From Jannaschia sp. CCS1 (lineage in GTDB: Bacteria; Pseudomonadota; Alphaproteobacteria; Rhodobacterales; Rhodobacteraceae): a stretch of 64,000 nt of DNA. The notes beneath the pieces were generated by a model that saw nothing but the letters and a program-made list of their open reading frames with translations, ran no database searches and was not told the DNA's origin. The DNA lies in the NCBI RefSeq assembly GCF_000013565.1, contig NC_007802.1, positions 1,922,001 through 1,986,000 of the forward strand. Direction: 5' to 3'. Positions within the stretch are counted from its first letter, which is position 1; the number at the start of each line of letters is the position of its first letter. A program made the position numbers and the translations under genes. Shown here piece after piece: positions 7,585-44,137 of the stretch.

Positions 7585-8670
7585 TTACGCCAGATCCACA
7601 GCCCGACCCGTCCGCGCGCTGTCTTGTGCGGCCATGCCCATGCGCACCGCCGCCGCCCCATCGCGGAGTGTGACGGCGGGGCGGGCGCCGTTACGGACCA
7701 CGTCCAGAAACTGCACATGCTGGTAATAGGTCGATCCGTGGTGATCGCCTGCGGTCAACAGATCCTTGTCCACCGGCGTATCATGCACCACCTGTCCGGT
7801 CGTCGGCGCGCGGGGGCTGACGACGACTTTGGGCATCGGCGCGGGGCCAAGGGCGGTGTTCCAGAACCGGGTGGGGCCGGGCACGCGGGCCTCAATCTTG
7901 CCCTTGGGCCCCACGGCGCTGATCTCTTCCTGATACTCGCTGCCTTCGGCGAACATGCACAGCTCCAGCATCGCCCGCGCGCCGCCTTTGAAGTCGACGA
8001 TGACGTAGCCATTGTCCCAGATGTCCGGCGTCTCTCCGCCATAGCGCTCGTCCAGATGGTTCACCGATTGCCCGGCGCTCGCCATGACCCGTACCGGTTC
8101 GTCTTTTAAGATCAAGCGCATGAGGTCAAAGAAATGACAACATTTCTCCACCAGCGTGCCGCCGGAATTGCGGTTGAAGCGGTTCCAGTCGCCGACCTTC
8201 TCCAGGAACGGAAAGCGGTGCTCGCGGATCGTCAGCATCTTGATGCCCCCCGTGGCCGCCTCCACCATCTCGCGGAAGGTCGCGATGGGCGGCATGTAGC
8301 GGTATTCCATCGCGACCCAGATCGGGGCTGTGTAGGCGTCCAGCGCGGCCACCGCATCGGCATCGTCCGGCGCGGTGAACAGCGGCTTTTCGCACAGGAT
8401 CGGCAGGGACACTTTGGCCGCGATCTGCTGCAATTGCGCGACATGGCAGTGGTTGGGCGAGGCGATCACCAGCGCGTCGATCTCTGCGCCCGTCAACAGC
8501 GCGCTCAGGCTGTCATAGCGCGTGGCGCCGTCGGTCAACGCAAGGCTCAACGCGGCCATGGCGTCATCGGGCTCATAAATCGCTGTCACGGCCGTGTCCG
8601 GCAAAAGGGCGATGTTGCGGATGTGCTCCTGGCCCATCATTCCCGCCCCGATCAGGCCGTATCTTGTCAT
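7585..8670 (-). CDS. Gfo/Idh/MocA-family protein; candidate NAD-dependent sulfoquinovosidase
   Basis: A 361-residue Rossmann-fold protein. The N-terminal nucleotide site is GxGxxG at residues 8-13 (GAGMMG), and the hallmark EKP triad is at 94-96 (CEKPL). The C-terminal alpha/beta substrate domain contains REHRFPFLEK and GGTLVEKCCHFFD. Family members oxidise sugars with NAD(P), and some (GH109, GH188) use bound NAD to cleave glycosides. It follows the GntR gene by 23 bases and is divergent from an LLM monooxygenase and an aldo/keto reductase. NAD-dependent sulfoquinovosidases (GH188) are reported in Roseobacter sulfoquinovose clusters lacking the classical enzyme, so that role is a reasoned candidate. 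An ordinary sugar or inositol dehydrogenase is the alternative. Confidence 0.75.
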   Translation of the reverse strand: MTRYGLIGAGMMGQEHIRNIALLPDTAVTAIYEPDDAMAALSLALTDGATRYDSLSALLTGAEIDALVIASPNHCHVAQLQQIAAKVSLPILCEKPLFTAPDDADAVAALDAYTAPIWVAMEYRYMPPIATFREMVEAATGGIKMLTIREHRFPFLEKVGDWNRFNRNSGGTLVEKCCHFFDLMRLILKDEPVRVMASAGQSVNHLDERYGGETPDIWDNGYVIVDFKGGARAMLELCMFAEGSEYQEEISAVGPKGKIEARVPGPTRFWNTALGPAPMPKVVVSPRAPTTGQVVHDTPVDKDLLTAGDHHGSTYYQHVQFLDVVRNGARPAVTLRDGAAAVRMGMAAQDSARTGRAVDLA

Positions 8671-8693
8671 GTTCTGCGTCCTTCGCCCGCGCT

Positions 8694-9428
8694 TCAGGGC
8701 ACTTTTGAGAAATATTGCGCGCGGTCCGGGTCGAACCAGGTCCGTGATGCCTCGCAGGGCAGGCCGTGCTGGTCATAGGCGCGCCGCTCGATGAACCCCA
8801 CCTGGGTGCCGGGCGCCAGGCCCAATTCGTCGGGCGTCCAATCGGGCAGGGGACCCGCGCTGATCACATCCTCGGCGTGCTGGATATGCAGGTGCAGCCG
8901 GTCGGCGTAGGTCCGGTAGAGCGATTCGGAGACCGTGCGCGCGTTCAGACCGTTGTCGTCATGCCAGCGCAGGTCCAGCCAGATCTCCTCCACCGCGACG
9001 GGGATATCCGCGAGAGCCCGCAGCCGCCGCATCCGGATGCCGACGTCGAACGTGCCGCCAATATTGGGCAGATCGTCGGGCTTTTTGGTCTTCCTGATGT
9101 CCAGAAGTTTCGCCGTGGGCAACCCGCCGCCAATCCCCTTCAGCTCCAGCCGGAACAGCGCGTAGGTCCCGATATTGGACCCGCCCCCCAGCACGTAATT
9201 GCCCGATCCCTGACGCCGCTCGATCAGCCCGCGCTCAACCAGAAGGTGCAGCGCCTTGCGCAGCGTGGCCACGGCCACGCCGCGCTCGGTGGCCATGGCG
9301 CGTTCGGGGGGCAGCTTCTCACCGGGGGACAAACGGCCCCCGCCAATGTCGATCGTGAGCGCCTCCGCGATGCGCAGATAGGTCGGCAGAGCGCCCGAGT
9401 TTGGGTCTGTGTCTGACGTCTCGGGCAT
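8694..9428 (-). CDS. GntR-family transcriptional regulator (HutC/UTRA type)
   Basis: A 244-residue repressor-type regulator. The winged-helix GntR domain is at the N-terminus (SPGEKLPPERAMATERGVA, TLRKALHLLVERGLIERRQGSGNYV) and a UTRA ligand domain at about 85-244. I chose the ATG at 9428 because GGGAGG lies 5 bases upstream; a GTG one codon earlier is possible. It heads a minus-strand pair with the Gfo/Idh/MocA gene and faces the LLM monooxygenase gene. A tandem repeat of ATTGATATACC lies in the shared promoter region and is its likely operator. In Agrobacterium the sulfo-SMO cluster has a GntR-type regulator (SmoD) next to the monooxygenase gene, the same arrangement. Confidence 0.9.
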   Translation of the reverse strand: MPETSDTDPNSGALPTYLRIAEALTIDIGGGRLSPGEKLPPERAMATERGVAVATLRKALHLLVERGLIERRQGSGNYVLGGGSNIGTYALFRLELKGIGGGLPTAKLLDIRKTKKPDDLPNIGGTFDVGIRMRRLRALADIPVAVEEIWLDLRWHDDNGLNARTVSESLYRTYADRLHLHIQHAEDVISAGPLPDWTPDELGLAPGTQVGFIERRAYDQHGLPCEASRTWFDPDRAQYFSKVP

Positions 9429-9453
9429 CACGACCTCCCGCGCGTTTGCCGAA

Positions 9454-9475
9454 ATTGATATACCATTGATATACC
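9454..9475. promoter_or_regulatory. Tandem 11-bp operator candidate for the GntR regulator
   Basis: Two exact, abutting copies of ATTGATATACC (9454-9464 and 9465-9475) sit between the divergent GntR and LLM monooxygenase genes. The GATATAC part is A/T-rich and partly symmetric, as many GntR operators are. Control of both transcripts by the adjacent GntR protein is inferred. Confidence 0.6.
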
Positions 9476-9544
9476 CTGCCCGGATTGCTACGCCTTGGCC
9501 CAGAGGTGGTCAAGGGCGGCTGCACGGCCAGAGGGAGAGAGCGC

Positions 9545-10699
9545 ATGACAGTGGTTCCGGTCACATCGGCAGATCTGGACGCCGCAGAGGTCAGCTGGTT
9601 CGCGGCGCTCTGCTCGGACGATTATGAATTTCTCGGCGTGCCCGACGGGCGGTTGCGGTCGTCGTGGGACCATTGCAGCGGGCTGGTCCGCGAGGCCGAG
9701 GCGCAGGGTTTCCGCAATATCCTGTGCCCGTCGTCCTATCAGGTCGGTCAGGACACCCTGTCATTTGTCGCGGGTTGCGCGCCAATCACCAGCAAAATCA
9801 ACCTGTTGGCCGCCGTGCGCTGCGGCGAGATGCAACCCATCATGCTGGCCCGCACCATCGCGACGCTCGACCACATGCTGGAAGGTCGTTTAACGGTAAA
9901 CATTATTTCCAGCGACTTCCCTGGGGAGAAGGCGGACAGCGGATACCGCTACCAACGCTCCCGCGAAGTGGTGGAGATCCTGAAGCAGGCCTGGACCGAC
10001 GATGAGATCAACTATCACGGTGAAGTCTATGATTTTAAAGGATTAACCACCGATCCCGTGCGACCCTACCAGACCGGCGGGCCGCTTTTGTATTTCGGCG
10101 GCTATTCCCCCGCTGCGCTGGAGCTGTGCGGGCAGCATTGCGACGTCTACCTGATGTGGCCCGAGCCGAAGGAGGCGCTGGCGCAGCGCATGAAGGACGT
10201 GAACCAAGTCGCTGAAAAATATGGAAGAACGCTGGATTATGGTCTGCGCGTCCACATGATTGTCCGCGACACGGAAGCCGAGGCTCGCGACTACGCGGAG
10301 CATCTGACCTCCAAGCTGGACGATGAATACGGCAAGTTGATCCGCGAGCGCGCCTTGGATAGCACGTCCCTTGGTGTCGCACATCAGGCTAAGGCCCGGG
10401 AATTGGCTGATAAGTTCGGCTATGTGGAGCCGCATCTGTGGACCGGCATTGGCCGGGCGCGGTCCGGGTGCGGGGCGGCTTTGGTGGGGTCCGCCGATCA
10501 GGTCCTGACCCAGATTGAGGAGTATAAGAAGATGGGCATCCGCGCCTTCATCTTCTCGGGCTATCCGCATATGGATGAATGCAAACATTTCGGACGGCTG
10601 GTCATGCCAGAGCTGAAAACCTGTTCAATGCCAGAGGTTTACGGGCGCGTGCCCGCCTCGGCCCCAGCAACGCCCCTGGGCGTGGGAGAGAGACGATGA
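9545..10699 (+). CDS. LLM-class FMN-dependent monooxygenase, SsuD-like; candidate sulfoquinovose monooxygenase
   Basis: A 384-residue bacterial luciferase-like TIM barrel related to alkanesulfonate monooxygenase SsuD. Such enzymes use reduced FMN and oxygen to split C-S bonds, releasing sulfite and an aldehyde. Family features include the NIISSDFPGE segment, the WTDDEINYHGEVYDF block typical of SsuD-like proteins, and GSADQVLTQIEEY near the end. The ATG at 9545 has AGGGAGAGAGCGC upstream. The aldo/keto reductase gene overlaps its stop by 4 bases (ATGA), implying translational coupling. The pairing fits SmoC with SmoB of the sulfo-SMO pathway. No flavin reductase is encoded nearby; FMNH2 would have to come from elsewhere. 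Confidence 0.82.
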   Translation: MTVVPVTSADLDAAEVSWFAALCSDDYEFLGVPDGRLRSSWDHCSGLVREAEAQGFRNILCPSSYQVGQDTLSFVAGCAPITSKINLLAAVRCGEMQPIMLARTIATLDHMLEGRLTVNIISSDFPGEKADSGYRYQRSREVVEILKQAWTDDEINYHGEVYDFKGLTTDPVRPYQTGGPLLYFGGYSPAALELCGQHCDVYLMWPEPKEALAQRMKDVNQVAEKYGRTLDYGLRVHMIVRDTEAEARDYAEHLTSKLDDEYGKLIRERALDSTSLGVAHQAKARELADKFGYVEPHLWTGIGRARSGCGAALVGSADQVLTQIEEYKKMGIRAFIFSGYPHMDECKHFGRLVMPELKTCSMPEVYGRVPASAPATPLGVGERR

Positions 10700-11604
10700 C
10701 CAAGACCGCCATAGCAAACCGCATCAATGTGGGCGGGGTCGATATGTCCCGCATCGTGTATGGCATGTGGCGTCTGGGCGATGACAACGATACGTCGCCC
10801 GCCCATGTGCAGGCGAAGGTGGAGGCCTGTCTGGCGCAGGGCATCACCACGATGGATCAGGCCGATATCTATGGCGGTTACGCGGCGGAGGAATTGCTTG
10901 GTGCGGCCCTAAAAGCGGCCCCCGCGCTGCGCGACCAGATCGAGATTGTCACCAAGTGCGATATCGTGGCCCCTATCGGCGTGCATTCTGACAAGCGGGT
11001 GAAATACTATGACACCAGCGCTGACTATATCACCCAAGCCGTCGATAAGTCTCTGAAATTCATAAATATTGACGTGATCGACCTGCTGTTGATCCATCGT
11101 CCAGATCCGCTGATGGACCACATGGAAACGGGTGCGTGCCTCGACAAACTCGTCGCCTCCGGCAAGGTCCGCGCCGTGGGCACGTCCAACTTCCGCCCCT
11201 GGGATTGGGATCTTTTGCAATCCGCGATGGAGACGCCGCTGGCCACCAATCAGATCGAGGCCTCCGTCCTGTGCCACGCGCCGTTTACCAATGGCGATGT
11301 GGCGTTTCATCAACGCCACGGCCAGCCGATCATGGCTTGGTCGCCGCTGGCGGGGGGCGCACTGTTCGGGGAGGAGGGCGCGGATGTGCACGCTGTGCTG
11401 GACCGGATCGGGGCCGATCATGGCGTGGGTGCCGATGCCGTCGCCGTGGCGTGGCTGTTGCGGCACCCGTCCAACATCCTGCCGGTGATGGGAACCAATA
11501 ATATCAACCGTATCAATAGCTTATCGGACGCCTTTAAAGTCACGCTTGATCGTCAGGACTGGTACGAGATCTATACCGCCGCGCTGGGACACGACGTGGC
11601 GTAA
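10696..11604 (+). CDS. Aldo/keto reductase; candidate 6-oxo-glucose reductase (SmoB-like)
   Basis: A 302-residue (alpha/beta)8 aldo/keto reductase. The catalytic tetrad is present: Asp54 and Tyr59 (MDQADIYGG), Lys87 (VTKCDI) and His134 (LLIHRPD). The NADPH-site region GTSNFRPWDWDLL and the C-terminal VMGTNNINRI are intact. It starts inside the stop of the LLM monooxygenase gene (ATGA at 10696-10699). In the sulfo-SMO pathway the monooxygenase turns sulfoquinovose into 6-oxo-glucose plus sulfite, and an aldo/keto reductase (SmoB) makes glucose. The pairing here suits that step. Other aldehydes from C-S cleavage remain possible. Glucose would feed the glk gene immediately downstream on the other strand. 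Confidence 0.85.
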   Translation: MTKTAIANRINVGGVDMSRIVYGMWRLGDDNDTSPAHVQAKVEACLAQGITTMDQADIYGGYAAEELLGAALKAAPALRDQIEIVTKCDIVAPIGVHSDKRVKYYDTSADYITQAVDKSLKFINIDVIDLLLIHRPDPLMDHMETGACLDKLVASGKVRAVGTSNFRPWDWDLLQSAMETPLATNQIEASVLCHAPFTNGDVAFHQRHGQPIMAWSPLAGGALFGEEGADVHAVLDRIGADHGVGADAVAVAWLLRHPSNILPVMGTNNINRINSLSDAFKVTLDRQDWYEIYTAALGHDVA

Positions 11605-11644: not shown

Positions 11645-12592
11645 TCAGCCCCGCGACAGATGGCTCGCGCAGCCCGTCAGCGCGGCATAATCGTCGCTGA
11701 CGACCGACACGCCAAACTGCTCCATGAAGGTCGAAAACCGGCCCTTGGACCGGAACGCCTCCACAAATCCGAACTGGTCCAGATAGGGCGCAAAGGCCCG
11801 CGTCACGCCGCCCACAAGGAACACGCCGCCGAAGGGCAGATGCGACAGCACCAGATTGCCCGCAACGTCCCCCAACACCTTCACAAACAGCGCGCCGGTA
11901 TCGCAGGCCTGTGCCTCACCATCGCCGATACGAGATAAAATATCAGCGGGATCAATGACTTCCCCGTGGAGGGCCGCGTGCAACTGGCTGACACCGCGCC
12001 CCGACAGCACCTCTTCCACCGACGGATATCCGCGGGAATCCGACAGCTTGCTCAGCATCGGGTGCAGCTCGGCAATAGATGTGGGCAGGCTCACATGCCC
12101 GGCTTCCGACGGCGGCACGAAGCGGCCGGCGGCGGTGTCAAACACCGGGCAGGCGTTGAACCCGGTGCCCAGGCCGATGACCAGTTTCGCCGCCGTTGCC
12201 GCCACCTCCGGCTGCGGCAAAACCTCCGCCAGATCGGTGGCCGCGATGTGGCCAATCGCGTGGCCCTGGGCCTGCAAATCGTTCAACACGGCGACGCGCT
12301 CGGCACTCAACGCCTCTGCCAGAACTGCCTTGTCGATGCGCCAGTCCAGATTGGTCAGGGTGCCGACCCCGTCATGGACAGGCCCCGCCATTGCGACGCA
12401 AACCCCTGTAATAAAGGTATGATTCTGGCTACTGTCGCCCAGATACCGGGCGATGACAGAGCCTATTCCATCAAACTCGGCATTGCGGTAGCGCCGCACG
12501 CTATCGACCTGGACCTCGGCCCCATGGGCCAGGGCCACACGGGTGTTGGTGCCACCGATATCGGCCACCAGCGAAAGAGCTGCGGGAACCAT
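11645..12592 (-). CDS. glk: Glucokinase
   Basis: An ATP-dependent glucokinase of 315 residues (ASKHA fold; the bacterial family is about 320), forming glucose 6-phosphate in the cytoplasm. The phosphate-1 loop is ADIGGTNTR at residues 10-18. LNDLQAQGHAI, GLGTGFNA and PSEAGHVSLP mark the sugar site, and GGVFLVGGV the adenosine motif. It is the third gene of a minus-strand group with the LacI regulator and the GH1 glucosidase (53 bases after the latter). It would phosphorylate glucose from the neighbouring alpha- and beta-glucosidases and feed the zwf-edd route encoded elsewhere in the window. Confidence 0.92.
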   Translation of the reverse strand: MVPAALSLVADIGGTNTRVALAHGAEVQVDSVRRYRNAEFDGIGSVIARYLGDSSQNHTFITGVCVAMAGPVHDGVGTLTNLDWRIDKAVLAEALSAERVAVLNDLQAQGHAIGHIAATDLAEVLPQPEVAATAAKLVIGLGTGFNACPVFDTAAGRFVPPSEAGHVSLPTSIAELHPMLSKLSDSRGYPSVEEVLSGRGVSQLHAALHGEVIDPADILSRIGDGEAQACDTGALFVKVLGDVAGNLVLSHLPFGGVFLVGGVTRAFAPYLDQFGFVEAFRSKGRFSTFMEQFGVSVVSDDYAALTGCASHLSRG

Positions 12593-12645: not shown

Positions 12646-13947
12646 TCAGCGCCACCAATTTGCTAATGCGTGATAGGACGCTTTGGGCGTCCGTGCCAAG
12701 GTCTCAAAATCCACATGGACGAGGCCGAAGCGTTTCTCGTATCCCAAAGCCCACTCATAATTGTCCATCAGGGACCACACGTAATAGCCCGCAACGGGGG
12801 CGCCGTCGGCAATCGCGGCCTGAACGCTGTGCAGGTGGTCGGTCAGATAGGCGATCCGGTCGGGGTCGGGCGTGGTGGCGGACGCCATGCCGTTTTCGGT
12901 GACATAGATCGGCAGATCACCAGTGTATTCGCGGGCGGTGCGGGTCAGAAAATCCTGCAACCCCTGCGGGTAGACCTCCCACCCCATGTCGGTCAGGGGG
13001 CCTTGGGTGGGCGCATAGGCATAGGCGGGCCAGGGGTCATCGGTCGCGCTGATGCGTTTGTTGGTGTAGTAATTCACCCCCACCCAATCGAGCGGTGAGC
13101 GGATGGTGGCGAAATCGTCCTGCCAGCCATCGGGCAGGTGGGGCTCCAACCCCTCCATCACCTCTGCCGGGTAGTCGCCCTTGAACAGCCCGCCCAGAAA
13201 GAAGCGGTTGTAGATCGCGTCATAGCGCGCGGCGGCGGCGATGTCGGCATCGCTGTCGGTGTTGGGCATGGCCCATTCAAAATTGCACACGGCCCCGAGG
13301 TTTTTCACGCCCAGACCTTTCATGACCTGGATCGACCGCCCGTGGCTGACCAGCACGTGGTGCATGGCCCGCGCGGTGGCGCGGATATCACGCAGTCCCG
13401 GCGCGTGGTGGCCCTCAAAATGCGACAGCCAACTGACGCACCACGGCTCATTGATCGGAGCGGCGGACCAGGTGCGGTCGCCGATGCGGGACATGATGGT
13501 CTCGGTGTAGTCGGCAAACCAATCGGGCATGTCGGCGTTGCGCCAGCCGCCCCTATCGGCCAGCGCCTGCGGCAATTCCCAGTGATAGAGCGTGACGGCG
13601 GGCGCGATGCCCCGCTCCAGCAGCCCATCGACGAGGCGATCGTAGAAATCGAGGCCGTCCTTGTTGGCCGCTCCACGCCCCTCCGGCATCACCCGCGCCC
13701 AGGAGGTGGAGAACCGGTAGACGTCCGCGCCCAGATCGCGGATCAGGTCCAGATCCTCGTCCAGCCGGTTCAGGTGGTCGCAGGCCCGCGCGCCGTCCTC
13801 AAACCGCACGACATTGCCGGGCGTGGCGGCAAAACTGTCCCAATGGGTCAGGCCCGCGCCGCCCTGGGCGTGCCCCTCGATCTGGTAGGCGGAGGTCGCG
13901 ACCCCGAAGCGAAAGCCCTCCGGGAAATCGGAGCGTTTGAAATCCAT
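12646..13947 (-). CDS. Beta-glucosidase, glycoside hydrolase family 1
   Basis: A 433-residue GH1 (beta/alpha)8 enzyme that hydrolyses beta-glucosides with retention. The acid/base Glu167 is in the INEPW motif and the nucleophile Glu351 in YVTENGM. The N-terminal FRFGVATSAYQIEG is a family signature. The ATG at 13947 has GAAGGA upstream; an in-frame extension adds nothing recognisable. There is no signal peptide, so it acts in the cytoplasm on imported sugars. It lies 41 bases after the LacI gene and 53 before glk on the same strand. Cellobiose-type substrates are likely; precise specificity is unknown. Confidence 0.93.
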   Translation of the reverse strand: MDFKRSDFPEGFRFGVATSAYQIEGHAQGGAGLTHWDSFAATPGNVVRFEDGARACDHLNRLDEDLDLIRDLGADVYRFSTSWARVMPEGRGAANKDGLDFYDRLVDGLLERGIAPAVTLYHWELPQALADRGGWRNADMPDWFADYTETIMSRIGDRTWSAAPINEPWCVSWLSHFEGHHAPGLRDIRATARAMHHVLVSHGRSIQVMKGLGVKNLGAVCNFEWAMPNTDSDADIAAAARYDAIYNRFFLGGLFKGDYPAEVMEGLEPHLPDGWQDDFATIRSPLDWVGVNYYTNKRISATDDPWPAYAYAPTQGPLTDMGWEVYPQGLQDFLTRTAREYTGDLPIYVTENGMASATTPDPDRIAYLTDHLHSVQAAIADGAPVAGYYVWSLMDNYEWALGYEKRFGLVHVDFETLARTPKASYHALANWWR

Positions 13948-13988
13948 GATTGTGTCCTTCGCTGGGGGCTGCTGCACCGTTGGGCGCG

Positions 13989-15023
13989 CTAGGTTGGAGC
14001 GGGTCCCGTGGACCGTCCGAGGGTAAGATCAGTCTCCCAGATCTCCTGAATATGGGGCTGGTCGGGATCGTCGATGAGGCTGAGCAGGATCTCCGCGCAC
14101 CGCCGCCCCGCCGCACGGATGGAGGAGCGGGTGGCAGTAAAGGCCGGCCCTTCCGGGGCGTTCATGCCATCGTTGTCGATATAACTCAGCACGTCGTCAT
14201 GGCAGATGATCGAGATGTCGTGGCCGGTGCGCAGCCCGCGCTCTCCGGCGGCGCGACGCACGCCGATGGCCGGAATGATCGACGAGACGACAAAGGCCGT
14301 GGGCGCGTCATCGCGGTCCAGCAGCGCGCGCGCCGTGCGATAGCCGTATTGCTCCGTCATGACGTCCGAATGCAGGAAGTCGGGACGGGGGGTCAGGCCC
14401 CGGGCGGTCAGGGCCTCTTCAAACCCGCGCCGACGGCGCAGGGCGAAATCCAGCGTCTCCTGTCCATTCAAAAGCGCGATCCGTCGGTGCCCCAGATCCA
14501 GCAGAAGATCGGTGGCGCGGCGGAAGGCGCGGACGTTGGCGACGTCGAGCCAGCTGTAGCCCTGCGGATCCGCGGTGCGGCCATGGATCAGGAAGGGCAG
14601 CCCGAGATCTTTCAGCAGCGGCACGCGCGCATCATCCAATGTGGGCGCCTGCACCATGACCGCATCGACCGACGCATTGGCCGCCATCTGCCTGTAGGCG
14701 GCTTCGGTGCAATCTGCGGGGACCATCGACAGGTGCAGGTCGAACCCGTCCTTGCCATAGACTTCCCCCGCACCGGCGATGAAATCGGCAAAGATCGGGT
14801 TCACCAACTCCTCCCGCCCGTTAAGCGGCATCACATGACCGATGGCCATGGCGCGGCCCGTTGCCAGCCTGCGGGCCCGCGAGTTGGGCAGGTAGTTCGC
14901 CGCCTCTGCCGCCTTCTGCACCCGCAGGCGCGTCGCTTCGCGCACCTCGGGGTAGCCATTCAAAGCGCGGCTGACGGTGGTCTGGCTCAGCCCGAGAGAT
15001 TCGGACAACTCCCTGAGGTTCAT
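13989..15023 (-). CDS. aglR: LacI-family regulator of the agl locus (AglR-like)
   Basis: A 344-residue LacI/GalR repressor. The N-terminal HTH reads MNLRELSESLGLSQTTVSRALNG, and the hinge helix region AANYLPNSRARRLATG precedes a periplasmic-binding-like ligand domain. The ATG at 15023 starts exactly at the HTH; a TTG six codons upstream is possible. It is divergent from aglEFGAK and first in a minus-strand set with the GH1 glucosidase and glk. Two LacI-type palindromes with an AAAGCGCT core lie in the divergent region, one right at this gene's start, which suggests autoregulation. In Sinorhizobium meliloti, AglR represses the aglEFGAK operon for alpha-glucosides. Confidence 0.85.
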   Translation of the reverse strand: MNLRELSESLGLSQTTVSRALNGYPEVREATRLRVQKAAEAANYLPNSRARRLATGRAMAIGHVMPLNGREELVNPIFADFIAGAGEVYGKDGFDLHLSMVPADCTEAAYRQMAANASVDAVMVQAPTLDDARVPLLKDLGLPFLIHGRTADPQGYSWLDVANVRAFRRATDLLLDLGHRRIALLNGQETLDFALRRRRGFEEALTARGLTPRPDFLHSDVMTEQYGYRTARALLDRDDAPTAFVVSSIIPAIGVRRAAGERGLRTGHDISIICHDDVLSYIDNDGMNAPEGPAFTATRSSIRAAGRRCAEILLSLIDDPDQPHIQEIWETDLTLGRSTGPAPT

Positions 15024-15038
15024 GGTTGCGGCGTCTTT

Positions 15039-15050
15039 CAAAGCGCTTGG
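15039..15050. promoter_or_regulatory. LacI-type operator near aglR start
   Basis: The bases CAAAGCGCTTGG differ at one position from the perfect palindrome at 15212-15223. It lies 16 bases before the aglR ATG, where bound repressor would block aglR transcription or early elongation. Autoregulation is inferred. Confidence 0.65.
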
Positions 15051-15172
15051 AATTTCGGCGAAAGGTATGCAAGGGGCGGGGCCAATGTCAAAGAAACAAT
15101 TTCACGCGCAGCCTTCTGGAATTGAATATTTGCCCTGAAAACGGGCGAATTTTGCGAAATGCCAGAGACTCG

Positions 15173-15223
15173 TTGACTTAACTCTTTGCATGCGCAAATG
15201 TGCCGCCACCCCAAAGCGCTTTG
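15173..15223 (+). promoter_or_regulatory. Putative aglE promoter with LacI-type operator
   Basis: A TTGACT hexamer at 15173-15178 is followed after 17 bases by AAATGT (15196-15201), a plausible sigma70-type pair. A perfect 12-base palindrome, CAAAGCGCTTTG (15212-15223), sits about ten bases further on, over the expected start site. A regulator bound there would repress aglEFGAK. The palindrome is directly visible; the -10 assignment is weak. Confidence 0.65.
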
Positions 15224-15311
15224 AAAAATGCGCGCTGGGACCTGATATGCGACTGCCGCGGCTGGATGCGACCCTGCACGGGCGCGCGGCGAACTGACTG
15301 GGAGGTCACCA

Positions 15312-16661
15312 ATGAAGAAGATCTATCTGGCGAGCGCCGCCGCGCTCGCTCTCTCTGCCAGTGGCGCGCTTGCTGATGGCCATATCAACCACATTTTCCC
15401 CGTGGGTGAGGGCGAGTTCAACTGGGACAGCTACACCGCCTATGCCGATGCCTTTGACCTGTCCGGTCAGGAATTGACGATGACGGGCCCGTGGACCGGC
15501 GATGACGCGGAGCTTGTAAACGCCGTTCTCGACTATTTCGAAAGTGCGACCGGCGCGACGGTGCAATATTCCGGCTCCGACAGCTTTGAAACGGACATCG
15601 TCGTTGCGACGCAGGCGGGCTCTGCCCCCAACATCGCGGTGTTCCCGCAGCCCGGCCTGATGACAGACCTCGCATCGCGCGGGTTCCTGACACCTCTAGC
15701 GCCCGAGACCGCCGATTGGGTCCGTGAAAACTATGCCGCAGGTGAATCCTGGGTGTCGCTTGGCACCGCAGCCAACGCCGCCGGTGAAGAGGCGCTGTAC
15801 GGTTTCTTCTACAAGGTCGATCTGAAATCCCTGGTCTGGTATTCGCCCGAGGCGTTTGACGAGGCGGGCTATGACATCCCCGAGACGATGGAAGACCTGC
15901 TGGCGCTCAACGATCAGATCGTCGAAGACGGCGCGACGCCATGGTGTATCGGTCTGGGATCAGGTGGTGCCACGGGCTGGCCCGCGACCGACTGGGTCGA
16001 AGACATCATGCTGCGCACCCAATCGCCCGACGTCTATGACGCCTGGGTCGCCAACGAGATCCCCTTTGACGCGCCCGAAGTGGTCAACGCCATCGAGACG
16101 TTCGGCGTCTTCGCCCGCAACGGCGATTACGTGAATGGCGGTGTGGAGGCGGTGTCGTCCACCGACTTCCGCGAAAGCCCCCTGGGCCTCTTCACCTTCC
16201 CGGCGGAATGCTACCTGCACCGTCAGGCGTCGTTCATCCCGACATTCTTCCCCGAAGATGCGGATGTGGACTTCTTCTACTTCCCCGCGTTTGAAGGCGA
16301 AGATCTGGGTTCGCCCGTCTTGGGCGCCGGCACTCTGTTCGGCATCACCCAGGACAGCGAAGCGGCACAGGCATTCATGGCGTTCCTGCAAACGGAAATC
16401 AGCCACGAGGTCTGGATGGCGCAGTCAGGCTTCCTGACACCGCATACCGGCGTGAATTCGGAGCTGTTCGCATCCGACACGCTGCGCCAGATGAACGACA
16501 TCCTGCTGGGGGCCACGACGTTCCGCTTTGATGCCTCTGACCTGATGCCGTCTGAAATCGGACAGGGTATCTTCTGGTCCGGCATGGTCGATTATGTGGG
16601 TGGCGAAGATGCCGCCTCCGTCGCGGCCCGGATCCAGGACCGTTGGGCTGAAATCCAGTAA
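15312..16661 (+). CDS. aglE: Alpha-glucoside ABC transporter, substrate-binding protein
   Basis: A 449-residue family-1 extracellular solute-binding protein. A clear Sec signal peptide (MKKIYLASAAALALSASG with an Ala-x-Ala site near residue 21) exports it to the periplasm. Conserved pieces of the AglE group include LTMTGPWTGDD, SDSFETDIV, PGLMTDLASRGFL and WCIGLGSGGATGWPATDW. GGAGGTCACC precedes the ATG. It is the first gene of the aglEFGAK order known from Sinorhizobium, where it binds sucrose, maltose and trehalose. A strong hairpin follows the stop, which probably raises the level of this mRNA over the permease genes. Confidence 0.93.
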   Translation: MKKIYLASAAALALSASGALADGHINHIFPVGEGEFNWDSYTAYADAFDLSGQELTMTGPWTGDDAELVNAVLDYFESATGATVQYSGSDSFETDIVVATQAGSAPNIAVFPQPGLMTDLASRGFLTPLAPETADWVRENYAAGESWVSLGTAANAAGEEALYGFFYKVDLKSLVWYSPEAFDEAGYDIPETMEDLLALNDQIVEDGATPWCIGLGSGGATGWPATDWVEDIMLRTQSPDVYDAWVANEIPFDAPEVVNAIETFGVFARNGDYVNGGVEAVSSTDFRESPLGLFTFPAECYLHRQASFIPTFFPEDADVDFFYFPAFEGEDLGSPVLGAGTLFGITQDSEAAQAFMAFLQTEISHEVWMAQSGFLTPHTGVNSELFASDTLRQMNDILLGATTFRFDASDLMPSEIGQGIFWSGMVDYVGGEDAASVAARIQDRWAEIQ

Positions 16662-16682
16662 GTCGCTGACTTGAAAAACACT

Positions 16683-16711
16683 GTCTCTGGCCCGGGATGT
16701 GGGCCAGGGAC
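16683..16711 (+). other. Intercistronic hairpin after aglE
   Basis: GTCTCTGGCCC and GGGCCAGGGAC can pair over 11 bases (one G-U) with a 7-base loop. There is no T-run, so full termination is unlikely. Hairpins just after binding-protein genes commonly protect the upstream mRNA segment, which would favour AglE over the permeases. That role is inferred. Confidence 0.6.
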
Positions 16712-16784
16712 AAAACCCGGTCCCGCAGAGGACCCGCCCGGCGCAGCGCATGTGCCACCAGCATAACGGGGGGAGGGCGCGCGC

Positions 16785-17762: not shown

Positions 17763-17763
17763 G

Positions 17764-18984: not shown

Positions 18985-19090
18985 GGGGGCGTGGGATTGC
19001 GCCGCTTCGCTGTGGCGCGCGACACCTCCTCGCGGCTTCGCCCGCTCCTCGCAGCCGTTATGTGACAGCGTTCCCGATGAGACGACCTTC
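18985..19090. other. Spacer between aglG and aglA
   Basis: 106 bases with GC-rich imperfect inverted repeats around GCGGCTTCGC (19032-19050) but no T-run. It may be a processing or stability signal inside the operon. No gene is supported. Confidence 0.3.
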
Positions 19091-20752: not shown

Positions 20753-20769
20753 CACGAAGGGGACAAACC

Positions 20770-23822: not shown

Positions 23823-23862
23823 TTGATCGCATGTGACCTCTGGACATGTTAGCGCTAACATG
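23823..23862 (+). promoter_or_regulatory. edd promoter with perfect 18-bp palindrome
   Basis: The palindrome CATGTTAGCGCTAACATG (23845-23862) is perfect over 18 bases. TTGATC at 23823-23828 and ATGTTA at 23846-23851 could be the -35 and -10 with a 17-base spacer, so the palindrome would cover the -10 and start site. The inner GTTAGCGCTAAC recurs before zwf (40369-40380). An AGCGCT core is typical of LacI-family operators. Confidence 0.8.
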
Positions 23863-23898
23863 ATACCAGCGTACCAACAGGTTTCACGGAGCAGCCCC

Positions 23899-25704
23899 AT
23901 GCCACTCGACCCGCGCATCGCCGATATCACGGACCGTATCATCGAGCGGTCCCGCCCCACGCGGGAGCCGTATCTTGAGCGGATGCGCAAGCTGGCCGAA
24001 GATGGCCCCCGTCGCGCGCATCTGACCTGTGGCAATCAGGCTCACGCCTATGCGGCCATGGGGGGTGACAAGGACGCGCTGGTGGCCGCGCATGCGCCCA
24101 ATATCGGGATCGTGACGGCCTATAACGATATGCTGTCGGCCCACCAACCCTTTGAAACCTATCCGCAAAAAATCAAGGATGCCGCGCGGGGGATTGGGGC
24201 CACGGCCCAGGTCGCGGGCGGTGTGCCTGCGATGTGTGATGGCGTCACGCAGGGGCAGGTGGGCATGGAACTGTCGCTCTTCTCCCGCGACGTTATCGCC
24301 ATGGCGGCAGGGGTGGCGCTGTCGCACAACACGTTTGACGCGGCCCTCTATCTGGGGGTGTGCGACAAGATCGTGCCGGGCCTTGTCATCGCGGCGGCGA
24401 CATTCGGCTATATCCCCGCGCTGTTCGTGCCCGCAGGTCCCATGGTCTCCGGCCTGCCCAACGACGAGAAGGCGCGCGTGCGTCAGCAATTCGCCGCCGG
24501 TGAGGTGGGCCGTGACAAGTTAATGGAGGCGGAAATGGCCTCCTATCACGGGCCGGGCACCTGCACCTTCTACGGCACCGCCAATTCCAACCAGATGTTG
24601 ATGGAATTCATGGGGTTGCACCTGCCCGGGGCCTCCTTCGTCAACCCCGGCACGCCGCTGCGTGATGCCCTCACCATAGCGGCAACGGAACGCGCCGCCT
24701 CCATCACCGCGCTTGGCAACGCCTATACGCCCGTCTGCGATATCCTCGATGAGAAGGCCTTTGTAAACGGCCTCGTGGGCCTCATGGCCACGGGCGGCTC
24801 CACCAACCTGGTCATCCACCTCATCGCCATGGCGCGCGCGGCCGGCATCATCCTGCAATGCAATGATTTCAACGACATCTCGGAAGCCACGCCGCTGATG
24901 GCGCGCGTCTACCCCAATGGCTTGGCAGATGTGAACCACTTCCACGCCGCCGGGGGCCTTGGCTATATGATCGGCCAATTGCTGGATGCGGGCCTGATGC
25001 ATGACGACGTCAAAACCGCCGCTGGCGACGGCCTGTCGCTCTACACGCAGGAACCCGCGCTGAATGACGGCGCGTTCCACTATCGGGACGGCCCGAAAGA
25101 GACGCTGAATGACAAGATCCTCCGCCCCCCGTCCGATCCTTTCGCCGCCACGGGTGGTCTGGCGGAGCTGAAAGGCAACCTTGGCATCGGCGTCATGAAG
25201 GTCTCTGCCGTTGATCCCGAGCGGCATTGTATCGAGGCGCCCGCCGCCATTTTCCACTCCCAGGACGCGGTCAAGGAAGCGTTCAAGAACAATGAGTTGG
25301 AGCGCGACGTTGTTGTGGTCGTCCGCTTCCAGGGCCCCAAGGCCAATGGCATGCCGGAACTCCATTCCCTCACGCCGCTGCTGTCGATCTTGCAGGGCCG
25401 TGGCCACCGCGTGGCGCTGGTGACCGATGGCCGCATGTCCGGCGCGTCCGGCAAGGTCCCCTCTGCCATCCATGTCGCGCCAGAGGCCTTGGACGGCGGC
25501 CTTATCGGCAAACTTCAGGACGGGGATCTCATCCGGGTCGATGCCAAAAACGGAACGCTCGACGTGCTGACCAACGGCGTTGCGGCTCGGGCACCGGTCA
25601 CCGCAGATCTCTCGGGCAACAGCCACGGTGTGGGTCGCGAGCTGTTTGAAATCTTCCGCCAATCCGCGGGCCCCGCTACCACCGGCGCGGGTGTTGTGGT
25701 CTAA
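23899..25704 (+). CDS. edd: Phosphogluconate dehydratase (Entner-Doudoroff)
   Basis: A 601-residue IlvD/Edd-family [4Fe-4S] dehydratase that converts 6-phosphogluconate to 2-keto-3-deoxy-6-phosphogluconate. The ATG at 23899 (with CGGAGC upstream) gives the standard N-terminus; the in-frame extension overlaps the operator and is unlikely. Family blocks include [54 protein letters not shown] and [15 protein letters not shown]. The cluster cysteines lie in MCDG, VCDK and the TCTF region. eda follows after a 183-base gap that contains a dispersed repeat. Confidence 0.97.
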
Positions 25705-25775
25705 GGCTATCGCATCCGCCCCGGGTCCGCCGCTGGCCCATCCCGGTCCCATCCCGGGGACGCGCTCCGCTCCCT

Positions 25776-25801
25776 CTTTCATCTGGGTAAATACAACTCA
25801 A
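25776..25801 (-). repeat. Dispersed intergenic repeat, copy B
   Basis: The plus strand reads CTTTCATCTGGGTAAA then TACAACTCAA, matching copies A (3366-3390) and C (37950-37974). It lies in the 183-base spacer between edd and eda, so it would sit inside the presumed edd-eda transcript. Confidence 0.7.
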
Positions 25802-25887
25802 TCCGACCCTTCCAAACCGTCACTTCCGCCAGACGGCGCGCTCCAGACCTCACCGCCCGCGCCTCTGCCCGCTGATCAGGACCTCCC

Positions 25888-26529
25888 ATGACCCCCCAAG
25901 CCCAATCCCTTGCCGCCCATCGCATCGCCGCCCTTGCGCCGATCATCCCCGTCCTCGTGGTCAATGATCCCGCCCATGCGCAGCCATTGGCCTCGGCTCT
26001 GGTCAAAGGCGGGTTGCCCGCGTTGGAAGTCACCCTTCGCACCCCCTGCGCGCTGGAGGTCATCGCAGAGATGGCGAAGGTCGAAGGCGGCGTCGTGGGT
26101 GCGGGCACGCTCCTCACCCCCCGGGATGTGGAAAACGCCAAGGAGGCCGGCGCCGTATTCGGCGTCTCGCCGGGGGCCACGGCGCATCTGATTGATGCCT
26201 GTGCGGCCAATGAATTGCCCTTGCTGCCGGGGGCGGCCACGGCGTCAGAGGTCATGTTTCTGTTCGAGCAAGGCTTTGATCTCCTGAAGTTCTTTCCGGC
26301 CGAGGCCAATGGCGGCGTGCCTGCCCTCAAGGCGATCGGCGCACCGATCCCGCAGGTCTCGTTCTGCCCCACGGGCGGTGTCAGCATCTCCAACGCGCCT
26401 GACTATCTTGGCCTGCCCAACGTGGTCTGCGCCGGCGGCTCTTGGGTTGCGCCGAACGCGGCTGTTGAGGCGGGCGATTGGGACCGGATTGAGCAATTGG
26501 CCAGTGAGGCGGCGGCGCTCTCGCGTTGA
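25888..26529 (+). CDS. eda: 2-dehydro-3-deoxy-phosphogluconate aldolase
   Basis: A class I KDPG/KHG aldolase of 213 residues that cleaves KDPG to pyruvate and glyceraldehyde 3-phosphate, closing the Entner-Doudoroff path. The Schiff-base lysine is Lys134 in LLKFFPAE, and the catalytic Glu47 is in LEVTLRT. FCPTGGVS is the phosphate site. A trimeric cytoplasmic enzyme is expected. It lies 183 bases after edd on the same strand; either it shares the edd promoter or has its own in the spacer. Confidence 0.96.
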   Translation: MTPQAQSLAAHRIAALAPIIPVLVVNDPAHAQPLASALVKGGLPALEVTLRTPCALEVIAEMAKVEGGVVGAGTLLTPRDVENAKEAGAVFGVSPGATAHLIDACAANELPLLPGAATASEVMFLFEQGFDLLKFFPAEANGGVPALKAIGAPIPQVSFCPTGGVSISNAPDYLGLPNVVCAGGSWVAPNAAVEAGDWDRIEQLASEAAALSR

Positions 26530-40401: not shown

Positions 40402-41847
40402 ATGGTCTCGCGCGTCATTCCGGTCGAACCGTTTGATCTTGTCATATTTGGGGGCACGGGCGATCTGGCCCGGCGTAAAATCCTACCGGCGCTGTTCCGG
40501 CGGTTCAGCGATGGGCAGATGCCCGAGGGCGCGCGCATCATCGGCGCGGCACGGACCAAGCAAAGCGGCGCGGCCTGGGCCAAATGGGTCCATGAGGCGT
40601 TGAAAGAATTCCTTACAAAAGAGGAACTGGACAAGGCGCTGGTGAAGGCGTTTCTGGAGCGGCTCGATTATCTGGCGATTGACGCGACGGGGGACGGTGG
40701 ATGGTCGGACCTGAAGGGCAAGATGCGCGACGGCGTCACCCAGGCGTTTTACTTCTCGGTCGGTCCCAGCCTGTTCGGGGCGTTGGCAGAACGTCTCCAT
40801 GCCCACGACATCGCCCACGCCGATGCGCGCATCGTGGTCGAAAAACCGTTTGGGCGCGACCTCGCCTCGGCCCGGGAGTTGAACGGCACCCTGGCCGCGC
40901 ATTTCAACGAGACGCAGATCTACCGGATTGATCACTATCTGGGCAAGGAAACGGTCCAGAACCTCATGGCGATCCGCTTCGGCAATGTCCTGTTCGAGCC
41001 GCTTTGGAACGCGCAATACATTGATCACGTGCAGATCACCGTGGCCGAAACCGTCGGCGTGGATGGGCGCGGAGCGTATTACGATAAATCGGGCGCGATG
41101 CGCGATATGGTGCAGAACCACCTGATGCAGCTGCTCTGCCTGACGGCGATGGAGCCGCCCAACAAGTTTGAGCCTGACGCGGTGCGCGATGAGAAGCTGA
41201 AGGTGATCCGCGCGCTCGACCCTGTGGCACCAGCCGATATCGTGCGTGGGCAGTATCAGGGCAAGCAGGGCTCCTATCTGGAAGATGTGGAGGATCCCGG
41301 CTCCAACACCGAAAGCTACATCGCGATGAAGCTGCACGTGGCCAACTGGCGCTGGAACGGCACGCCATTCTATCTGCGGACGGGCAAATGCCTGAAATCG
41401 CGCAAGTCCGAGATTGTGGTGCATTTCAAGGAAACGCCGCATTCGATCTTTGAGGCCGATGCGGGCAGCCACGCCAATGTTCTGTCGATCCGCCTGCAAC
41501 CCGATGAGGGGATCAAGCTGCGCGTCACGATCAAGGAGCCGGGACCCGGCGGCATGCGTTTGGTGGATGTGCCGCTCGACATGACGTTCGCGGAGGCACT
41601 GGGGCCAGATGTGGGCCGGGTGCCGGACGCCTATGAGCGGCTGATCATGGATGTGATCCGGGGCAATCAGACCCTGTTCATGCGCGGCGATGAGGTGGAG
41701 GCGGCCTGGGCCTGGACCGATCCGATCATCGGCGGCTGGAAGGCGCGGAGCGAAAAGCCGGTCGCCTATGACACCGGCTCGACCGGCCCGGAAGAGGCGC
41801 TGATGCTGCTGCACCGGGACGGCCGCAGATGGAGGGATTTGTCATGA
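40402..41847 (+). CDS. zwf: Glucose-6-phosphate 1-dehydrogenase
   Basis: A 481-residue NADP-dependent enzyme making 6-phosphogluconolactone, the first step of both the Entner-Doudoroff and oxidative pentose-phosphate routes. The NADP loop is IFGGTGDLARRK, the active-site signature RIDHYLGKETVQN, and EKPFGRDLASA is also intact. GAGGAGAAC precedes the ATG. pgl overlaps its stop (ATGA at 41844-41847) and pgi follows, forming one operon headed by the shared palindrome. Confidence 0.97.
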   Translation: MVSRVIPVEPFDLVIFGGTGDLARRKILPALFRRFSDGQMPEGARIIGAARTKQSGAAWAKWVHEALKEFLTKEELDKALVKAFLERLDYLAIDATGDGGWSDLKGKMRDGVTQAFYFSVGPSLFGALAERLHAHDIAHADARIVVEKPFGRDLASARELNGTLAAHFNETQIYRIDHYLGKETVQNLMAIRFGNVLFEPLWNAQYIDHVQITVAETVGVDGRGAYYDKSGAMRDMVQNHLMQLLCLTAMEPPNKFEPDAVRDEKLKVIRALDPVAPADIVRGQYQGKQGSYLEDVEDPGSNTESYIAMKLHVANWRWNGTPFYLRTGKCLKSRKSEIVVHFKETPHSIFEADAGSHANVLSIRLQPDEGIKLRVTIKEPGPGGMRLVDVPLDMTFAEALGPDVGRVPDAYERLIMDVIRGNQTLFMRGDEVEAAWAWTDPIIGGWKARSEKPVAYDTGSTGPEEALMLLHRDGRRWRDLS

Positions 41848-42518
41848 GGAATTTCGTCGAATACCCCGACCAAGAAATGATGATGCTGGATCTTGCGGAC
41901 CGGCTGACCGGAGAGTTGGCCGATTGCCTGCGCCGCCACGACAGCGCCACGCTATGCGTGCCCGGCGGCACCACGCCGGGTCCGATCTTCGATGTGTTGA
42001 GCGAGCAGGCGCTGGACTGGGACCGTGTCTTTGTCGTGCTGAACGATGAGCGATGGGTGGACGAGGATAGTCCGCGATCCAATACAGCCATGCTGCGACA
42101 AAAGTTATTTGTGTCAAAGGCTTCCGGTGCGACGCTCATCCCATTGTTCAAAAGCGGTCTAACCGCCGAAGAGGCGATGGACGAGCTGATTGAGGGCTTT
42201 GAAGGCCATCTGCCGATCTCGGTCCTTGTGTTGGGAATGGGCGCGGATATGCACACGGCGAGCCTGTTTCGCGGTGCCGATAATCTGACGGCGGCGCTGG
42301 CCTCTGATGCGCCTGTGCTGATGCCGATGCGGGCGGACGGCGCGGGGGAGCCTCGGATCACGTTGACAGCGCCTGTTCTGAACGGTGCGCTCAGCAAACA
42401 TGTGGTCATCACCGGGGCGGAGAAGCGTGCAGCACTCGAACGCGCCCTGCATTTGCCCCCGGAAGACGCGCCGATCAGCGCGGTTCTGGCGGGCGCAACA
42501 GTCCATTGGGCGGAGTAG
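41844..42518 (+). CDS. pgl: 6-phosphogluconolactonase
   Basis: A 224-residue DevB/SOL-type lactonase of the NagB fold. Motifs are LCVPGGTTPGPIFD, VVLNDERWVDEDSPRSN and VLGMGADMHTASLF, where the histidine is the general base candidate. The ATG at 41844 overlaps the zwf stop by four bases. It speeds hydrolysis of the lactone made by Zwf. pgi starts 5 bases after its stop. Confidence 0.94.
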   Translation: MRNFVEYPDQEMMMLDLADRLTGELADCLRRHDSATLCVPGGTTPGPIFDVLSEQALDWDRVFVVLNDERWVDEDSPRSNTAMLRQKLFVSKASGATLIPLFKSGLTAEEAMDELIEGFEGHLPISVLVLGMGADMHTASLFRGADNLTAALASDAPVLMPMRADGAGEPRITLTAPVLNGALSKHVVITGAEKRAALERALHLPPEDAPISAVLAGATVHWAE

Positions 42519-42523
42519 GCGAT

Positions 42524-44137
42524 ATGGGTGAGATCTGGTCAGAGCTGAAGGCGCATCATTCCGCCAAATCGCGGCGCAAGATGTTGGATTTGTTCGAGAA
42601 AGGTAACAGAGTTCAGGCGTTTTCAGCGACGGTAGACGGCCTCTACTTTGACTTTTCCAAGACCAATCTGGACGATGGCGCGCTGTCTTTGCTGTTGGAA
42701 CTGGCGCGCGTGAAGGGTGTCGAATCCCGCCGTGCGGCGATGTTTGCTGGCGACAAGATCAATGAGACCGAAGGGCGCGCGGTCCTTCACACGGCGCTGC
42801 GCGCGCCTGCGGGGCCGATCAAGGTCGATGGCCAAGACATCATGCCCGGCGTGTTGGAGACCCGCGCCCGGTGCTTTACCTTCGCCCAACAGGTGCGCGA
42901 CGGCAGCTTCACGGCGCAGGGGGGCCGCATCACGGATGTGGTCAATATCGGCATCGGCGGCTCGGACCTTGGGCCTGCCATGGCAACCCTGGCCCTTGCG
43001 CCCTATCACGATGGCCCGCGTCTGCACTATGTCTCGAACGTCGATGGCGCGGACATGAACGGCGCCCTGCAAGGGATTGATCCCAAAACGACTTTGGTGA
43101 TTGTGGCCTCGAAAACCTTCACCACGATCGAGACGATGACCAACGCCCAGACGGCGCGGGACTGGATGGCGCAGGACGTCGCTGATCCGTCGGCGCAGTT
43201 CGTCGCGCTCAGTTCCTCCACCGAGAAGGCCGGCGCGTTTGGCATCCCGCCCGAGCGGACGTTCGGGTTCGAGGATTGGGTCGGCGGGCGCTACTCCCTG
43301 TGGGGACCGATTGGGCTGGGTCTGATGATTGCCATCGGCCCGGAGGCGTTTCAGCAATTCCTTGATGGGGCCGCCACGATGGACCGGCACTTTCAGGAGG
43401 CCGATCTGGCCGACAACCTGCCCGTTCTTCTGGCGCTGGTGGGGATGTGGCACAATCAGGTGGAAGGCCACGCGACCCGCGCCGTTTTGCCCTACGACAA
43501 CCGTCTGTCGCGCTTGCCCGCCTACCTTCAGCAGCTTGAGATGGAGAGCAACGGCAAGTCCGTCGCGATGGATGGCAGCGCGTTGCAGCAGAATTCCGGC
43601 CCGGTGGTCTGGGGAGAGCCGGGCACCAACGGCCAGCACGCGTTCTATCAGTTGATCCATCAGGGCACCCGTGTGGTGCCGTGTGAATTCCTCGTGGCCG
43701 CCAAGGGGCACGAGCCGGATCTGACCCACCATCACCGGCTATTGGTCGCCAATTGCCTGGCGCAGTCCGAGGCGCTGATGCGCGGCAGATCCATGGAAGA
43801 GGCACGCGCGCTCATGGCCGCCAAGGGCCTTGAAGGTGCAGAGCTGGAGCGTCAGGCCGCCCACCGTGTGTTCCCGGGCAACAGGCCCTCCACAACGCTG
43901 CTCTATGATCAACTCACGCCATTCACCCTCGGCCAGATCATCGCGCTTTATGAGCATCGGGTGTTTGTGGAAGGGGTCATTCTGGGGATCAATTCCTTCG
44001 ACCAATGGGGCGTGGAGTTGGGCAAAGAGCTGGCCACTGCGCTGGAGCCGGTTCTGACCGGTAAGGATGACGGCGCTGGCAAGGACGGCTCGACCCTCGC
44101 GCTGGTGGATGCGGTGAAGGCGGTTGGGGGCATCTAG
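42524..44137 (+). CDS. pgi: Glucose-6-phosphate isomerase
   Basis: A 537-residue phosphoglucose isomerase with both signatures: the VVNIGIGGSDLGP sugar loop with ASKTFTTIET, and the C-terminal NSFDQWGVELGK where the lysine helps ring opening. The catalytic Glu is in the QLEMESNGKS block. The ATG at 42524 was chosen; an in-frame extension of six codons lies over pgl. Sharing an operon with zwf and pgl lets fructose-derived hexose enter the Entner-Doudoroff route. The 3' end overlaps the convergent thioesterase gene by 4 bases. Confidence 0.97.
   Translation: MGEIWSELKAHHSAKSRRKMLDLFEKGNRVQAFSATVDGLYFDFSKTNLDDGALSLLLELARVKGVESRRAAMFAGDKINETEGRAVLHTALRAPAGPIKVDGQDIMPGVLETRARCFTFAQQVRDGSFTAQGGRITDVVNIGIGGSDLGPAMATLALAPYHDGPRLHYVSNVDGADMNGALQGIDPKTTLVIVASKTFTTIETMTNAQTARDWMAQDVADPSAQFVALSSSTEKAGAFGIPPERTFGFEDWVGGRYSLWGPIGLGLMIAIGPEAFQQFLDGAATMDRHFQEADLADNLPVLLALVGMWHNQVEGHATRAVLPYDNRLSRLPAYLQQLEMESNGKSVAMDGSALQQNSGPVVWGEPGTNGQHAFYQLIHQGTRVVPCEFLVAAKGHEPDLTHHHRLLVANCLAQSEALMRGRSMEEARALMAAKGLEGAELERQAAHRVFPGNRPSTTLLYDQLTPFTLGQIIALYEHRVFVEGVILGINSFDQWGVELGKELATALEPVLTGKDDGAGKDGSTLALVDAVKAVGGI

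Follow-up and report, generated by a model that had tools for sequence, protein, structure and literature searches.

A probable sulfolytic sulfoquinovose locus in Jannaschia sp. CCS1, and a candidate importer operon elsewhere in the genome that carries the same promoter repeat

Gene content of the locus

Roseobacter-type gene clusters for degradation of sulfoquinovose (SQ), a sulfur-containing sugar of plants and algae, place a glycosidase gene of family GH188 beside genes for sulfolytic cleavage of the sugar, and an earlier note had proposed such a module, with a cofactor-type glycosidase, in Jannaschia sp. CCS1. We analysed the 64,000 nucleotides of contig NC_007802.1 from position 1,922,001 to 1,986,000, which are referred to as the window; G000 denotes the genome of the window, other G numbers denote compared genomes and L numbers denote compared loci. 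The four genes that the note had placed around one divergent promoter were all found at the coordinates it gave. The minus strand carries a gene for a putative GH188-type NAD+-dependent sulfoquinovosidase, SqgA-like and of the Gfo/Idh/MocA fold (7585..8670), and a gene for a GntR-family regulator of the HutC/UTRA type, SmoD-like by position (8694..9431), which adjoins GH188 in related loci. The plus strand carries genes for a SmoC-type FMNH2-dependent SQ monooxygenase (9545..10699) and a SmoB-type 6-oxo-glucose reductase of the aldo/keto reductase type (10696..11604), and the ATG of the latter overlaps the stop codon of the former as ATGA, the coupling that had been noted. The Pfam domains of the four proteins are, respectively, Gfo/Idh/MocA, GntR plus UTRA (PF00392 and PF07702), luciferase-like monooxygenase and aldo/keto reductase. 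Both the GntR helix-turn-helix domain and the UTRA domain are present in the regulator, which places it in the HutC subfamily.

The monooxygenase likely starts at ATG 9545 and not at TTG 9485 as in the list of open reading frames (ORFs), because residue 21 of the TTG 9485 ORF aligns with residue 1 of the solved structure 7oh2. The divergent promoter holds a candidate operator, the tandem direct repeat ATTGATATACCATTGAT (9454..9470, plus strand), and no match to a sigma-70-type promoter was found at 9380-9600. No flavin reductase or importer gene stands beside the four genes, which agrees with the gaps listed in the note. The genome of the window has no second SmoC, the next match reaching 31% over part of its length.

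Enzyme identity

The monooxygenase matched the solved structures 7oh2 at 709.9 bits and 7olf at 697.2 bits, both of which bear generic printed titles and which we take to be SmoC, whereas SsuD/MsuD-type entries scored 184.8-198.5 bits. It thus falls with the SmoC-type structures as had been predicted, and a plain alkanesulfonate monooxygenase was ruled out by the much lower SsuD/MsuD-type scores. The reductase matched 7bby/7bbz at 415 bits, with the next entry at 204; these two entries, also printed under generic titles, are presumably SmoB, in line with the type proposed for this gene. The Gfo/Idh/MocA protein matched 8zn9 at 509.1 bits, 8qc2 at 370.5 bits and 8qc3 at 367.2 bits, and its best match apart from these three was an inositol-type dehydrogenase at 70.5 bits. 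The protein is therefore more closely related to SqgA than to other Gfo/Idh/MocA proteins, which upholds the suggestion that it is a GH188 enzyme, and an inositol-type dehydrogenase was ruled out by the same scores. The entries 8qc2 and 8qc3 are the SqgA structures from the paper that founded GH188 (PMC10755693).

All nine ligand-site residues of SqgA that were checked are kept in the window (K95, Y123, E150, R152, L156, K158, E175, H179 and H310), and the nine, with the Arg, Leu and Lys that bind the sulfonate among them, are invariant in 83/83 sequences from the window and 82 related loci. The residue list was taken from PMC10755693, with Glu163 of that paper matched to the nearest Glu; residues of the sulfonate site are reported in 96-98% of GH188 (PMC11465081). 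The aldo/keto reductase tetrad D54, Y59, K87 and H134 is identical in all 85 SmoB sequences. Five SsuD-type active-site residues, for which we assumed the SsuD numbering, are likewise identical in 85/85 SmoC sequences. The window thus encodes a SmoC-type monooxygenase and a SmoB-type reductase together, a combination that a survey takes as its mark of the sulfo-SMO pathway and that gives no answer on uptake of the sugar (PMC13372026). Structure matches, ligand-site residues and catalytic residues together bear out the earlier proposal, and we consider the locus to be, with a probability of about 0.9, a sulfolytic SQ module of the Roseobacter type.

Related loci and the reduced form of the locus

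The best 80 of 586 confirmed SmoC stretches served as related loci, so the set leans to near relatives. Clustering of ORFs across these loci placed SmoB in 80/80, SmoC in 79/80, and GH188 and GntR in 78/80 each; two short contigs (L013 and L039) and a merged ORF (L014) account for the exceptions, and the 78 include L090, in which GH188 is about 8 kb distant, on the far side of an ATP-binding cassette (ABC) operon. This four-gene arrangement is far from chance. The standard related locus has GH188-GntR divergent from SmoC-SmoB-flavin reductase followed by the QMP genes of a tripartite ATP-independent periplasmic (TRAP) importer. Flavin reductase (SmoA) and at least one TRAP gene were seen in 53 of the 80 loci, the reductase only in 13, neither in 14 and TRAP only in none; the TRAP importer is thus absent from 27/80 and the flavin reductase from 14/80. 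L082 ends 360 bases past SmoB and is uninformative at the locus. The window belongs to the type without flavin reductase and without TRAP, so the description "reduced or dispersed" given in the note held for the reduction, while a shared repeat before distant ABC genes (below) suggests a possible site for the importer.

Searches of whole genomes were consistent with the absence of both parts. In the genome of the window, the best SmoA relative reached 34% identity with the L018 SmoA as query and 41% to the nearest of 66 SmoA-type proteins, and the best relative of the TRAP binding protein DctP reached 29%. Across the 15 genomes without both (G000-G014), the best relative of L018 SmoA was no more than 37% and the top-scoring DctP no more than 32% identical, in contrast to control genomes carrying the genes, in which identities were 51-100% for SmoA (five genomes) and 86-100% for DctP (three genomes). 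A weak SmoA relative of 22-28% identity occurs in 17 of 20 genomes, and these matches may be different genes. In a quick SmoC tree made with no bootstrap, nine Roseicyclus-type rows form a group with the window (support 88); their SmoC is 87-93% identical to that of the window. Loss of both SmoA and TRAP arises at least three times in this tree, as forced by well-supported branches; a count of 7 changes is slightly high, since the window had its own label. Apart from these losses, a BadF/NagK-type kinase gene lies 3' of GH188 on the same strand in 10/80 loci and a NagA-type deacetylase gene in 8/80, as at L012:6074-8043 and in other Roseicyclus-type loci, and this amino-sugar pair is not there in the window.

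A tandem repeat in the divergent promoter

The tandem direct repeat ATTGATnnAnnATTGAT was found within 130 bases 5' of SmoC in exact form in 81/84 loci and with at most one mismatch in 84/84, where the 84 comprise the 80 related loci and four plasmid loci, with 1,608,895 bases scanned. Elsewhere in these bases there are one exact copy, between the ABC operon and GH188 of L090, and two copies with one mismatch. Forty permuted half-sites used as a control gave a mean of 0.075 exact matches and a maximum of 3. Direct-repeat operators are known in the HutC subfamily, as for FarR and NagQ (PMC4494728), and by analogy the GntR/UTRA protein may bind the tandem repeat.

A candidate importer away from the locus

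The same repeat precedes an ABC operon that lies 2.1 Mb from the smo genes in the genome of the window (G000:C2 ~4.040-4.045 Mb), with its binding protein gene at G000:C2:4043653-4044933. ABC genes of this type stand away from smo in G000, G001, G002, G006 and G124. Before those of G000, G001 and G006 the repeat is exact and lies 196-199 bases 5' of the start codon, in upstream regions that are otherwise 53-64% identical in a gapped alignment (G002 is outside this comparison, its start motif not being found); before those of G124 it has one mismatch. In G049 and G129, the gene order is SmoC-SmoB-SmoA-binding protein-two permeases-ATPase, with the binding protein gene linked to smo at a distance of about 1.5 kb past SmoC; the operon of G129 also holds a YeiH-type exporter, a glycerol-3-phosphate dehydrogenase and a glycerol kinase. 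Among 110 genomes of the family of the window, a binding protein of the L090 type was found at E <=1e-150 in four, including the genome of the window, and SmoC in 45; all four also have SmoC. In a binding-protein tree, the Roseicyclus, smo-linked and G124 proteins form one clade, whose internal order is weakly supported, apart from a uronide type. These data support, without proving, the view that the unlinked ABC system is an SQ glycoside importer that shares its operator with smo, since seven further copies of the repeat in G000 have no explanation.

Several observations count against this assignment. G000 holds seven exact and two one-mismatch copies of the repeat in 1,295,002 bases, including those of the window and the ABC operon, and the base-composition expectation for exact copies is 0.003, which marks them as genuine copies of some element. 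With gene limits set by ORF reading, three of the other seven fall where convergent genes end, two fall within genes, and two fall before or between genes with no evident link. The G000 copies cannot all be promoters; the extra ones may be decoy sites or an element specific to the lineage. The ABC genes of G002 lack the site even when two mismatches are allowed, no ABC of this type was seen in G003-G005, G007-G009 or G011, and no flavin reductase gene was found that is tied to the SQ module. In addition, the ABC operon of G000, G001, G002 and G006 also has Gfo/Idh, CoA-transferase, enoyl-CoA hydratase and aldehyde dehydrogenase genes, which the SQ pathway does not need, so that the ABC may serve another glycoside.

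The extra copies in G000 are at L169:8051, L174:2754, L184:6388, L186:6518, L188:1648, L207:2171 and L221:7857 on contig C2, two of them with one mismatch. G001 showed the ABC copy alone in 416,001 bases, and G015 showed no copy in 400,000 bases. An FMN reductase gene at L169:9080-9619 was considered as a regulon member and rejected, because the repeat 1 kb upstream lies inside a gene for a thiamine pyrophosphate enzyme on the other strand. The additional genes in the ABC operon lie at L153:1088-6025 (G000:C2 ~4.035-4.040 Mb), and the CoA-transferase is FadX-like.

An ABC of a different type near smo (L029, L052 and the Nioella loci) was ruled out as the importer. It had at first seemed complementary to TRAP, being present in 18/19 TRAP-less and 0/3 TRAP-bearing genomes, but this complementarity was rejected because the count pooled two ABC subfamilies. 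The larger subfamily occupies its own tree branch and stands with UxuA, UxaC-like and UxuB-like genes (UxaC and UxuB being named from the sequences by eye) and three Gfo/Idh genes. The L052-type binding protein matched SmoF of Agrobacterium tumefaciens no better than at E 0.91. This uronide-type cluster, with UxuA, three Gfo/Idh genes and its own ABC, was seen in L029, L036, L052, L157, L158, L160, L161, L163 and L164; it lies less than 10 kb from smo in several genomes, and its three consecutive Gfo/Idh genes are unusual.

Proposed pathway and alternative explanations

We propose that SQ glycosides, for example sulfoquinovosyl glycerol, would be imported by the unlinked ABC system under the same operator. 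The GH188 enzyme would free SQ, its bound NAD+ transiently oxidising C3, and the SmoC-type monooxygenase would use FMNH2, which an unrelated flavin reductase may supply, to cleave the C-S bond into sulfite and 6-oxo-glucose. The SmoB-type reductase would turn 6-oxo-glucose into glucose, which could be phosphorylated and passed to glucose-catabolic genes of the same region, whose tie to the module is presumed. The GntR/UTRA protein is predicted to control both directions of transcription through the tandem repeat in the shared promoter.

The SQ module of the Roseicyclus lineage may have been split into a regulon, in which smo lost the flavin reductase and TRAP and a distant ABC importer of unassigned type, found within smo in other genomes, acts under a shared operator. 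We put this dispersed arrangement at about even odds, because of the extra G000 copies, the G002 operon without a site and the unexplained extra operon genes. If it is true, the additional ABC operon genes would be new members of the SQ regulon, perhaps for an aglycone other than glycerol. A short DNA motif and a named ABC system make the hunt for the missing importer directly testable.

The SQ module could be real while its glycosides enter through the adjacent agl-type ABC (window 15312-21903, plus strand) instead of the unlinked one. The distance from this system to SmoB is 3.7 kb; an agl-type binding protein occurs less than 10 kb from SmoC in 15/80 loci, on either side; and at L078:12054-19267 the flavin reductase is followed at once, in the usual place of TRAP, by an agl-type ABC operon that includes a GH13-type gene. 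However, a close AglE relative occurs in 20/20 genomes searched, including TRAP-bearing ones, so it is not specific to reduced loci and was set aside as a smo-specific importer. Moreover, the agl operon of the window is preceded by no operator-like repeat, the sole site being that at 9454, and the agl ABC is accompanied by a GH13 enzyme and a LacI regulator. Entry by this route is thus unlikely, though it is the least improbable of the alternatives considered.

Less probable still is that the locus acts on a related sulfonate or sulfo-sugar with a dehydrogenase in place of the glycosidase. The best NCBIfam models are an alkanesulfonate monooxygenase (244.6 bits against a cut-off of 518.2) and an inositol 2-dehydrogenase (120.9 against 355), both far under cut-off, but for each of three proteins the match to the SQ-type reference is far better than that to the general family, and the sulfonate-binding residues of GH188 are retained. 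We give equally little credence to a decaying remnant in which the pathway no longer works: SmoA and TRAP are absent with no proven replacement, yet the window and most related reduced loci retain all four genes intact, and the close SmoC identity with the nine Roseicyclus-type loci is matched by kept active sites and promoter repeat. Of the readings weighed, a working SQ module is the one that we prefer.

Neighbouring genes

The glucokinase gene (11645..12592, minus strand; PF02685) lies 40 bases past the reductase gene, so the earlier statement that it follows directly is right as to distance. It lies on the opposite strand, however, in a glk-GH1-LacI group adjoining the agl-type ABC operon, and belongs to this neighbouring glucoside cluster rather than to the smo operon. 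The enzyme may use glucose from the SQ module and is a likely sink for it. Further along on the plus strand are genes for an ILVD/EDD-family dehydratase (PF00920) and a 2-keto-3-deoxy-6-phosphogluconate (KDPG) aldolase (PF01081), taken as edd-eda by adjacency (23833..26529), and for glucose-6-phosphate dehydrogenase, a 6-phosphogluconolactonase-type protein and phosphoglucose isomerase (40402..44137). All five genes lie within 33 kb and could serve the module. The agl/GH1/LacI sugar cluster (window 12646-21903) is a recurrent neighbour of smo. At 45719-47758 the window has a gene for a RACo-type reductive activator of corrinoid proteins, which suggests corrinoid methyltransferase metabolism nearby.

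Comparison with known systems

Unlike the locus in the window, the cluster of Agrobacterium tumefaciens has a GH31 glycosidase, a linked flavin reductase and, as importer, an ABC system with SmoF. The SmoC, SmoB and GntR types are common to both, the cluster of A. tumefaciens being described as the sulfo-SMO genes SmoA-I (PMC12890257). Sulfo-SMO clusters without a flavin reductase are known, and the sulfo-ASMO type of Novosphingobium aromaticivorans resembles the window in that no flavin reductase is linked to its monooxygenase and reductase (PMC9594981). In this type SmoC is only 51% identical to that of the window, and a cluster of the same type in N. pentaromativorans has an annotated alpha-glucosidase, LacI and glycerol genes where the window has GH188 and GntR. 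The smo operons of G049 and G129 share with the window the divergent GH188-GntR and SmoC-SmoB pairs and the promoter repeat, and differ from it in holding SmoA and the ABC genes inside the operon.

The titles and abstract openings of the literature matches listed held nothing on a TRAP importer, reduced loci or an operator, and we make no claim that these are unpublished. The closest known arrangement is that of Roseobacter sulfo-SMO clusters with GH188, in which the gene is described as near-universal (Kaur et al. 2023, PMC10755693). The megaplasmid locus of Ruegeria sp. TM1040 (L132) has the same GH188-GntR pair divergent from SmoC-SmoB (PMC10755693), its SmoC is 83% identical to that of the window and it carries the same promoter repeat, whereas the flavin reductase and TRAP genes that follow its SmoB are both missing from the window. 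Since GH188 beside sulfo-SMO genes in Roseobacters has been published (PMC10755693), the core of the locus is a member of an already known system.

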